Shown piece after piece: positions 30,608 to 48,173 of a stretch of 64,000 nucleotides of DNA. The stretch is from assembly GCA_019634165.1 (NCBI GenBank), contig JAHQVT010000012.1:367528-431527 (forward strand), given 5' to 3'. The DNA is from Rhodospirillales bacterium. Its GTDB lineage: Bacteria > Pseudomonadota > Alphaproteobacteria > Rhodospirillales > Thalassospiraceae. The notes under the pieces are model-generated. The model was not told where the DNA came from, did not search any database, and was given only the letters and a program-made list of their open reading frames with translations. Both the position numbers and the translations under genes were made by a program. Position 1 is the first letter of the stretch. Each line of letters begins with the position of its first letter.

Positions 30608-30929
30608 AATACCACCGGTTCCAACTGTTGCGCACTTGATGGAGCCAAATTCGTCCACGCGACCAGACGCATTGTGCCGATCATCGCCGATCATCCTCGT
30701 ATCGGGGGGATGGGCAGCCGACGGAACGCCGCCGATGGCCGAATTCGACCTTTCGACCCTTCGGATGGGCGGATAGGTTGATGGGCTGATGGGTCGGTGG
30801 ACCGTTTTGTTGAGCCTGCCGGACAATGTTGTGTCCCGCTTTTGGTCGTAAGGCCACAGCGCAGAACACGCCTTGTCAGCAGAGGCGACAAACCGGTCAC
30901 GTAGGGCAACAGTTGGAACCGGCGGTATT
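30608..30929. mobile_element. MITE-like element, 322 bp, 24 bp terminal inverted repeats
   Basis: AATACCACCGGTTCCAACTGTTGC (30608-30631) vs GCAACAGTTGGAACCGGCGGTATT (30906-30929), one mismatch; no convincing internal ORF. Confidence 0.7.
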
Positions 30930-45680: not shown

Positions 45681-46862
45681 CTAGTTCTTTACAAACAACT
45701 GCCTTGGATAACTGGTCAGGGTTTTGCTGCCGGTTTCCGTAATCATCATGCTTTCGGTGATCTCGATTCCCCAGTCATCAAACCAAAGGCCCGGCATGAA
45801 GTGGAAAGTCATGCCCGGTTGAAGAACCGTTTTATCACCTGGGCGCAAGCTCATGGTGCGTTCGCCCCAGTCTGGCGGATAGGAAAGCCCGATTGGATAA
45901 CCACAACGGCTGTCTTTTTCGATGCCGTATTTTTGCAGGACGCCAAAGAAGGCAAGAGCGATGTCTTCGCATAGATTGCCCGGTTTGGCGGCTTCTAACC
46001 CGGCCTGAAGGCCTTCAATCAGGGCATTTTCGGCATCAAGGAAACGTTGATCAGGATCGCCTAGAAAAATCGTGCGCGATAGCGGTGCGTGATAGCGTTT
46101 GTAACAACCCGCAATTTCAAAGAACGTTCCGGCATCCCCCGGAATGGGTTTTTCATCCCATGTCAGGTGCGGTGCGCTGGCATCCTGACCGGACGGTAAA
46201 AGCGGCACAATGGCCGGGTAATCCCCGCCAATGCCATCAATGCCAGCAATGCCGGTACGGAAGATTTCCGCAACCAGTTCGTTCTTCTTCATGCCCGGTT
46301 CGACGATTTCGAAAATGCGTTCATGCATGTTTTCAACAATACGCGCAGCTTGGCGCATATAGAAAATCTCGGTCTCGGATTTTATGGCGCGTTGCCAATT
46401 GACCAGTGCGGTTGCATCGGAAAACTTCGCATTCGGAAGATGGGTCTGTAACTGCAAGAAAGCCTTGGCAGAGAAATAGTAGTTATCCATTTCCACGCCA
46501 ATTCTGCGCGTTTCCCATCCGCGATACTCGATCACTTCGGACAGGTAATCCATCGGGTGATGGGTGGTCGATTGCACATAGTAATCCGCGTACGGAATGA
46601 TGCGATCATGGGTCATATAGACCGTGCGCTTGGCGCCATTGGCATCCTGAGATCGCCCAAACCAGATCGGGTCGTCTTCAATTGGGACAAGCACACATTG
46701 ATGGACATAAAAGGACCAGCCATCATAACCGGTCAGCCAGGCCATGTTTGACGGATCGGTCACGATCAAAAGATCGAGCCCCCTTTCCACCATGGCTTTT
46801 TTGGTTTTCTCCAGACGCTCGGCATATTCCTCGCGCGTGAAATTCAATTCAACCTGGCTCAT
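45681..46862 (-). CDS. doeA: Ectoine hydrolase (M24 peptidase-like)
   Basis: Creatinase/prolidase-type N-terminal and M24 domains (AWLTGYDGWSFYVHQ, GTFFEIAGCYKRYHAPLSRT); synteny. Confidence 0.88.
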   Translation of the reverse strand: MSQVELNFTREEYAERLEKTKKAMVERGLDLLIVTDPSNMAWLTGYDGWSFYVHQCVLVPIEDDPIWFGRSQDANGAKRTVYMTHDRIIPYADYYVQSTTHHPMDYLSEVIEYRGWETRRIGVEMDNYYFSAKAFLQLQTHLPNAKFSDATALVNWQRAIKSETEIFYMRQAARIVENMHERIFEIVEPGMKKNELVAEIFRTGIAGIDGIGGDYPAIVPLLPSGQDASAPHLTWDEKPIPGDAGTFFEIAGCYKRYHAPLSRTIFLGDPDQRFLDAENALIEGLQAGLEAAKPGNLCEDIALAFFGVLQKYGIEKDSRCGYPIGLSYPPDWGERTMSLRPGDKTVLQPGMTFHFMPGLWFDDWGIEITESMMITETGSKTLTSYPRQLFVKN

Positions 46863-46891
46863 CGCAGGCCTCCTGATAAAGGCGGGGTTGA

Positions 46892-47154
46892 GGACCTAGA
46901 CTCACGAATGTGACGACAATGGTTGTTCGGATTTGTGCGGATAGGCGAAGCAAAGCAGCAGGAAGATTACCATCTTTCAATGCTTTGCGACAAACTAGCC
47001 CGTGCAAATCCGAACAATCCGGAGGACAACCGCTAGAGTTGCGAACTCCAGCGTTAAACTCCTTGTTCGGGTCACCAACCCGCCCTGCGGAGTTTTCCTC
47101 GTATTTCACAACTCTAACGGTTGCCATGGTCATCACATTCGTGAGTCTAGGTCC
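46892..47154. mobile_element. MITE-like element inside the ectoine catabolic gene run, TA-flanked, 263 bp including flanking target palindrome
   Basis: GGACCTAGACTCACGAATGTGACGACAATGG (46892-46922) vs CCATGGTCATCACATTCGTGAGTCTAGGTCC (47124-47154), two mismatches over 31 bp; internal stems; no ORF of note. Confidence 0.78.
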
Positions 47155-47180
47155 TTTTCTGACCCATTTTCCTTGTGTTA

Positions 47181-48173
47181 TTAAGATGATATCTCGACGC
47201 CTGCACCGGCTGCATTGCAGCGATGACGCGCGAGGGTGGCGATTGCGGTGTCTTGCACACCAGTTCCGGTCAAATCACACACCGTAATTTGGCCGGCAGA
47301 AGTTCTGCCGGTCATGGATTTGGCGATGATCTGTCCAAGTTCGGGGAATGTCGCGTCCTTGGCAACAATCCCGGCATCAATGGCGTGATGAAGTTCACCA
47401 AGGATGCTGGTTTGCGCCTGACTGTCGCTGACATAAAGATCAGCTCGCCCAATCAGGGCAGGGTCAATTTCGTTTTTATGTTCGGCATCTGATCCCATGG
47501 CGGTGATGTGCGTGCCCGGTTTGACCCAATCGGCCAAAAGGATCGGTTCGCGTGCCGGGGTGGTGGTGACAATGATGTCAGCTTTGGCACAGGCATCCTG
47601 ACCGTCGCTGGTTGCAGATATTGGGATGCCAAGTTCAGATGATGCTTTTTTCGCACATGCTTCGGCCTTGCCGATGTCACGCGCCCAAATGGTTGCCGAT
47701 GTTATGTCACGGACAAGGGTGATGGCTTTAAGCTGTAATTGGGCCTGAACACCCGCACCATAAATCGTGACATGTTTGGCATCCTTGCGGGCCAAATGAT
47801 TGGCGGCAACACCCCCGGCCGCAGCCGTTCGGATATCGGTCAGATAGCCGTTATCCAGCAAGACGGCCTCTAACATGCCGGTCTTGGATGAAAACAGGTT
47901 CATCATGCCATTAACCGATGGCAGGCCCAGTTTGGGATTATCAAAGAAACCCGGACTGATTTTGATGGCAAATCCGTCAAGACCCGGAACATAGGCGGTT
48001 TTGACATCGACTTCGCCGTTATAGTCATCGATATCAAGCCGCAGGATCGGCGGCATGCGGACATCCTTGGTCGCCAAGGCCAGAAAAGCATTTTCGATAC
48101 AGGCAATCGCATCCATATCAAGATCGATGACGTTGCGCAGATCGTTTTCGGTCAAAATTCTGATTTTGGGCAT
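47181..48173 (-). CDS. eutC: Ornithine cyclodeaminase family protein, ectoine utilization EutC
   Basis: AAAGGVAANHLARKDAKHVTIYGAGVQAQLQLKAI; synteny eutABC. Confidence 0.9.
   Translation of the reverse strand: MPKIRILTENDLRNVIDLDMDAIACIENAFLALATKDVRMPPILRLDIDDYNGEVDVKTAYVPGLDGFAIKISPGFFDNPKLGLPSVNGMMNLFSSKTGMLEAVLLDNGYLTDIRTAAAGGVAANHLARKDAKHVTIYGAGVQAQLQLKAITLVRDITSATIWARDIGKAEACAKKASSELGIPISATSDGQDACAKADIIVTTTPAREPILLADWVKPGTHITAMGSDAEHKNEIDPALIGRADLYVSDSQAQTSILGELHHAIDAGIVAKDATFPELGQIIAKSMTGRTSAGQITVCDLTGTGVQDTAIATLARHRCNAAGAGVEISS

Follow-up and report, generated by a model that had tools for sequence, protein, structure and literature searches.

The stretch of DNA analysed here (the window, 64,000 nucleotides) carries, between a eutC-type and a doeA-type gene of a putative ectoine-breakdown operon, a 263-bp non-coding element at positions 46892-47154, and the question is what kind of element this is, what brought it there and whether its interior has a role of its own. 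Descriptions of bacterial MITEs usually cover one genus at a time and regard them as insertion sequences that have lost their interior by deletion. The preliminary description of the locus had read it as a non-autonomous insertion of IS630 type in a palindromic target. As presented below, the insertion itself is borne out, while its parentage, its inner boundary and the nature of its interior are to be seen differently.

Position and Boundaries of the Element

The sequence and coordinates agree with those given before. The ends, GGACCTAGACTCACGAATGTGA, are perfect inversions of each other over 22 bp (46892-46913 vs. 47133-47154), and the longer terminal inverted repeats (TIRs), at 46892-46922 on the plus strand and 47124-47154 on the minus strand, match at 29 of 31 bp, i.e., with the two mismatches already described. 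The 17-mer TAGACTCACGAATGTGA has two inverted occurrences in the window, for which the chance expectation is 0.07. Upstream in the putative transcript is the eutC-type gene (47181-48173, minus strand; ornithine cyclodeaminase/mu-crystallin family) and downstream the doeA-type ectoine hydrolase gene (45681-46862, minus strand; Creatinase_N and Peptidase_M24). With both genes on the same strand, as had been noted, the element lies within a putative transcript of the order eutC, element, doeA. It begins 26 nt past the eutC stop and finishes 29 nt ahead of the doeA start in a spacer of 318 bp, leaving the doeA ribosome-binding site intact. The only open reading frame touching it, of 125 aa (46910-47287, plus strand), crosses the element and has nothing to support it as a gene, in line with the earlier view that no plausible gene lies inside.

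Alignment of the copies gives the family ends as TA|GGGTCAGGACCYATTAATTTG...|TA, and GGACCTAGACTCACGAATGTGA of the window copy aligns column by column with the family consensus end. In this alignment GGACCTAG corresponds to the consensus end GGGTCAGG, from which it has diverged; 14 of the 22 consensus end bases are retained in the window copy, whose left terminal repeat has diverged from the consensus GGGTCAGGACCYATTAATTTGATTG. The inner boundary proposed previously, GACTC...GAGTC, is therefore not the edge of the element: the TA beside GACTC falls inside the terminal repeat, and the true ends are GG...CC at 46892 and 47154. Since GGACCTAG is a diverged terminal repeat, the palindrome GGACCTAGGTCC, which had been restored by removal of the inner part and taken for the target, is merely the element's own two ends joined. 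It is also absent from the empty sites, where there is a different small hairpin.

A TA duplication and a preference for CTAG, both suspected earlier, do hold for the family. TA flanks both ends in 80 of 99 intact relatives, and the reconstructed targets of these 99 copies include CTAG (37), CTAA (17), TTAA (9) and TTAG (8). For the window copy its own duplication is not visible because the flanks at the corresponding positions have decayed, to GA on the left (46890-46891) and TT on the right (47155-47156). Roughly one in four of the 99 intact copies (e.g., L058, L061, L067, L082, L089, L102 and L118), often those between convergent genes, have a neighbouring reading frame that stops exactly in the edge TAG with a 2-nt overlap; either the element may have entered CTAG sites that held a TAG stop codon, or genes may have been truncated.

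Copies and Empty Sites

At least eight related copies, with 74-80% identity, are present in the same genome. Copies are found at the ends of contigs C1, C4, C9 and C10 of this assembly (G000), and the repeat probably breaks the assembly, so that the copy number is underestimated. In blastn searches most of the 28 other genomes of the genus had copies, up to dozens each, and none were found in the sampled genomes from other families of the order. Of the 29 genus genomes, 23 contain the TIR, which also occurs across Alphaproteobacteria. When the joined flanks were used as the query, 27 of the 29 genus genomes showed an uninterrupted eutC-doeA spacer, and the site is filled only in the source genome and a relative, G016. 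No transposase gene is contained in the window element. The element is a multi-copy, non-autonomous MITE, neither a single-copy sequence nor an ordinary conserved spacer, and the preliminary description was right in this respect.

The empty spacers contain a small hairpin, GGGGTTTCAG...CTGACCC, and the element sits inside that hairpin. Across the empty spacers (L232-L260) nearly all relatives keep such a small, sequence-variable hairpin (GGGTTTCAG..CTGACCC, GGGTCCAGACCC, GGGCAAGGCCC). This suggests that the hairpin is itself a separate RNA signal between the two cistrons, interrupted here by the element.

Parentage

Intact insertion sequences with the same TIR were found in Novosphingobium (L114, 844 bp), in Mesorhizobium (L130, 837 bp) and within the genus itself (L178, L179 and L174); those sharing the ~21-bp ends span 837-855 bp. 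The transposase of L130 matches PF13340 and PF01609 (DDE), and those of the other intact elements are its relatives by tblastn. A full IS630 element had been expected behind these repeats; going by the IS5-family transposases (PF13340 + DDE) encoded between the same ends, the parent is an IS5-family element and not IS630. We take it to belong to the IS427-like group of that family (two-ORF transposase, DUF4096 + DDE). Compared by eye, the IS5 elements and the MITE had no common sequence beyond the ends, and no transposase gene has left its remains in the 263-bp body. The intact IS5 parents are without the folded arms described below, and the transposase thus needs no arms.

The Folded Arms

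What the preliminary description overlooked is a conserved folded interior. Folded as single strands, both strands of the element are far below their shuffles (-152 and -155 kcal/mol, z -12.5 and -14.1). Two arms give it a two-fold symmetry: arm A lies on the plus strand (46919-47021; fold z -8.8), arm B on the minus strand (47023-47127; fold z -7.6). Each arm is ~100 nt long and has the same motif, consisting of a stem, an AGGA/GACG region (AGGA/GAC in arm A), a second stem, a GCA/AA loop and an apical hairpin. Two covariance models of the arm, R1 and R2, were used. Arm A scored 105.6 bits with R1, of which it is a training member, and 93.3 bits with R2; arm B scored 48.5 bits with R2 when filters were off and gave no R2 match with default filters on the whole window.

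Exact matches to the 22-bp end are spread over Alphaproteobacteria (Roseibium/Labrenzia, Stappia, Brucella gallinifaecis, Pelagimonas, Sphingopyxis, Sneathiella and others), and most of them form pairs with a span of 264-268 bp. The interiors between such ends have diverged to ~60% or beyond blastn detection, yet their fold is similar, with a terminal stem that bears two long arms. Variants of 280 and 292 bp with a small insertion in one arm were also seen (L116, L055 and, in Brucella gallinifaecis, L148), perhaps comparable to the long form of the Correia elements. With the covariance models of Rfam 15 the window copy had no match, and L137, L040 and one Correia copy matched at chance level only. 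As to the loops, kink-turn, sarcin-ricin-like and SRP-like motifs were considered, and none fitted well enough.

For 16 diverse arms, RNAalifold predicted 36 pairs, 31 of them with compensatory double changes; this subset and the covariance models were used because a single alignment of 40 arms misaligned the outer stems. Over 47 distinct rows, 91% of the cells pair and 34 of the 36 pairs have changed on both sides, and when the structure was slid by 1-3 columns pairing was at most 46%; such pair counts come from alignments fitted to the structure, so that the 16-arm and in-place tests are the cleaner ones. The in-place test is offered by the G016 ortholog, which occupies the same site and aligns with the window copy without gaps. 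They differ by 25 substitutions, of which 12 are unpaired and 13 lie in stems, where full compensation is seen in six pairs, one further pair has become G-U and no pair is broken, as against 0.39 double changes expected.

The best conserved part of the arms is the loop columns AGGAG, CGCAG, CAAG and CGACG (~26 effective families). A regular expression for the motif was matched outward-first by 68 of 196 arms and in mirror orientation by none, with three matches in shuffles. Correction by template switching could contribute to the compensated pairs. It should erase mismatches of 2-3 nt, however, and would not account for the loop mismatches that have been kept. With conserved internal loops within freely covarying stems, it is most likely the folded form that is under selection.

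A Wider Family with Different Ends

R1 matched 19 of 296 Alphaproteobacteria genomes, in 18 of 228 genera, and many of the matches have perfect TIRs of other sequence (TAGGCCATGGACTCATAAAT, CTAGGGTCTGAACCCAATTCAA, TAGAGCATAATCCATTTATATA, ATACCAAGTTGCGGTGATAAAG, AGAACCTATCCCAGTAATATTA and more). Elements with such other TIRs span 255-288 bp with two arms and 165-193 bp with one. R2 was built from a wider set of arms including these elements and matched 87 of 399 Pseudomonadota genomes, ~60 of them outside Alphaproteobacteria (e.g., Pseudoalteromonas, where both arms were detected); the E-values of the models are rough and the sample holds about one genome per species. The terminal repeats are not part of R2, and 19 of 20 new matches examined have TIRs matching at 17-18 of 18 bp. 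As far as these alignments and models go, the elements form a large family across Pseudomonadota with differing ends and a strongly conserved folded interior. No report of such a wider family was found in the literature that was covered, i.e., open-licence papers.

Single-arm versions (165-193 bp) occur beside two-arm ones (L061/L204, L207, L214 and L231), and in those seen the retained arm is outward-first. When IS5 transposases with matching ends were sought in the sampled genomes bearing other TIR types, only the GGGTCAGGAC branch was matched (G178 and G317), and judged by these end matches mobilisation by IS5 is plausible for that branch only.

The source genome itself has 11 R2 matches in 10 places. 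One of them, L323, has different ends (AATACCAACGRCTTTAGTTATG) and a TIR of its own, and its arms score 50.2 and 45.9 bits. It has a homologue elsewhere in the window, at 30609-30928, with the ends AATACCACCGGTTCCAACTGTTG... and with a LacI-type regulator gene on one side and a gene for an ABC transporter ATPase on the other. The arms of this window homologue gave weak matches (30798-30900, minus strand, 24.6 bits; 30639-30755, plus strand, 9 bits), which mark it as a second, decayed member of the superfamily that differs in its ends.

Comparison with Known Elements

Correia elements (CREE/NEMIS) of Neisseria resemble the present element in being small, bounded by TIRs and non-autonomous, with a target duplication, a long stem and the arm motif ...AGG...CGCAG...CAAG...ACG.... 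However, they are 104-157 bp long, with one arm, the TIR TATAGTGGATTAA and a longer form with an IHF site. The 26-bp Correia terminal repeat (TATAGTGGATTAA...), described as confined to Neisseria (PMC2649163), is absent here, where the ends are GGACCTAG.../GGGTCAGG.... Correia-bearing contigs were found by DNA pattern and then run against R2; four Correia loci gave modest matches (E 2e-6 to 2e-4, 26-34 bits), in which AGG, CGCAG, CAAG and ACG were in register. Judged by these model matches, the Neisseria Correia elements are probably single-arm members of the family.

Insertion sequences of the IS5 family share the ~21-bp terminal repeats and the CTAG/TA ends, but possess a transposase and lack the arms. 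ERIC/IRU of enterobacteria is likewise a MITE with a TA duplication and a folding transcript, and some gammaproteobacterial members of the arm family end in TATACCC as ERIC does, but ERIC differs in its length of 127 bp. As a candidate member it was rejected, an actual ERIC locus (L320) reaching 7.8 bits at best with no arm match. CIR of Caulobacter and Brucella resembles the element in its description as a pair of arms with a linker between them (PMC2229807). It is described as differing in its ~110 bp, the lack of a TIR and a GANTC loop motif; the present element has TIRs and another length.

Proposed Mechanism and Alternatives

The best explanation as a whole, which we hold with good though not full confidence, is that of a MITE spread by IS5, with selected folded arms, that would act as an RNA processing signal in an operon. 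The element would most likely have been spread by a transposase of the IS5 family, working in trans on the shared ~21-bp ends, and insertion at TA (usually CTAG), with duplication of the TA, would have taken place in an ancestor of the source genome and G016. We infer that trans-mobilisation is followed by transcription and action at the RNA level. The arms are arranged so that either transcribed strand carries one arm in motif orientation; by the two-fold symmetry, one motif-form arm results whichever way the element is inserted. In the eutC-doeA mRNA the element would most likely form a three-way junction, placed directly ahead of the ribosome-binding site of doeA. For transcribed Correia elements, binding and cleavage by RNase III have been reported (PMC2649163), and by analogy RNA folding and RNase III-type processing are likely in this operon mRNA as well, where the folded element would most likely serve as a signal for processing or stability and the processing could govern how much eutC mRNA there is relative to doeA mRNA. 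A broader proposal, for which we would claim somewhat less than an even chance, is that the arms constitute an RNA module under selection, with conserved non-canonical internal loops, carried by phylum-wide MITEs of many ends, of which Correia is one branch, and acting in the transcript in either orientation.

Among the alternatives, a role at the level of DNA, in which the arms act as single-stranded or cruciform DNA recognised by a transposase or host factor in transposition or replication, deserves the most weight, although we consider it unlikely. Two-fold symmetry is a property of double-stranded DNA, the arms travel together with TIRs of many types, and covariation cannot distinguish RNA from single-stranded DNA; on the other hand, the intact IS5 parents have the same ends and no arms, and the RNase III action reported for Correia transcripts (PMC2649163) points to RNA. 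It is more doubtful still that the element is a non-functional passenger, whose palindromes are kept perfect by template-switch correction and whose family likeness reflects common descent only. Long palindromes can indeed remain complementary through quasi-palindrome correction without selection on RNA, and the compensated changes 12/254, 16/250 and 20/246 all fall within a single tract, as template switching could yield. Such correction, however, should have erased the short loop mismatches that persist over ~26 effective families, and length and loops have been kept where the primary sequence is at ~60% or beyond blastn.

The two remaining readings fare much worse. A MITE derived from IS630/Tc1-mariner and inserted into the palindrome GGACCTAGGTCC would account for the TA duplication and the CTAG preference of the family, both common to IS630, but with IS5-family transposases in the intact elements of the same TIR, GGACCTAG explained as a diverged TIR and GGACCTAGGTCC missing from the empty sites, it is very improbable. 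The strong fold in the doeA leader might also suggest a regulatory RNA, conserved between the genes and native to this operon; given that the same spacer is empty in 27 of 29 genus genomes and the element is multi-copy elsewhere, the probability of this is close to nil.

Significance

Sequence, length and covariation link elements with different ends from many genera of Pseudomonadota through one folded interior, and this linking interior is absent from the intact insertion sequences. The Correia elements thereby gain relatives outside Neisseria. The old question of whether such elements persist through a function of an RNA or a DNA fold, and of what reads the loops, has become testable, and the arm covariance model is immediately usable for the annotation of unlabelled intergenic repeats. 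If the proposal of a selected RNA module is true, the module would act on transcripts, by way of their processing, their stability or the tolerance of insertions in operons, and the elements would constitute a class of mobile RNA regulators previously unrecognised as one family.
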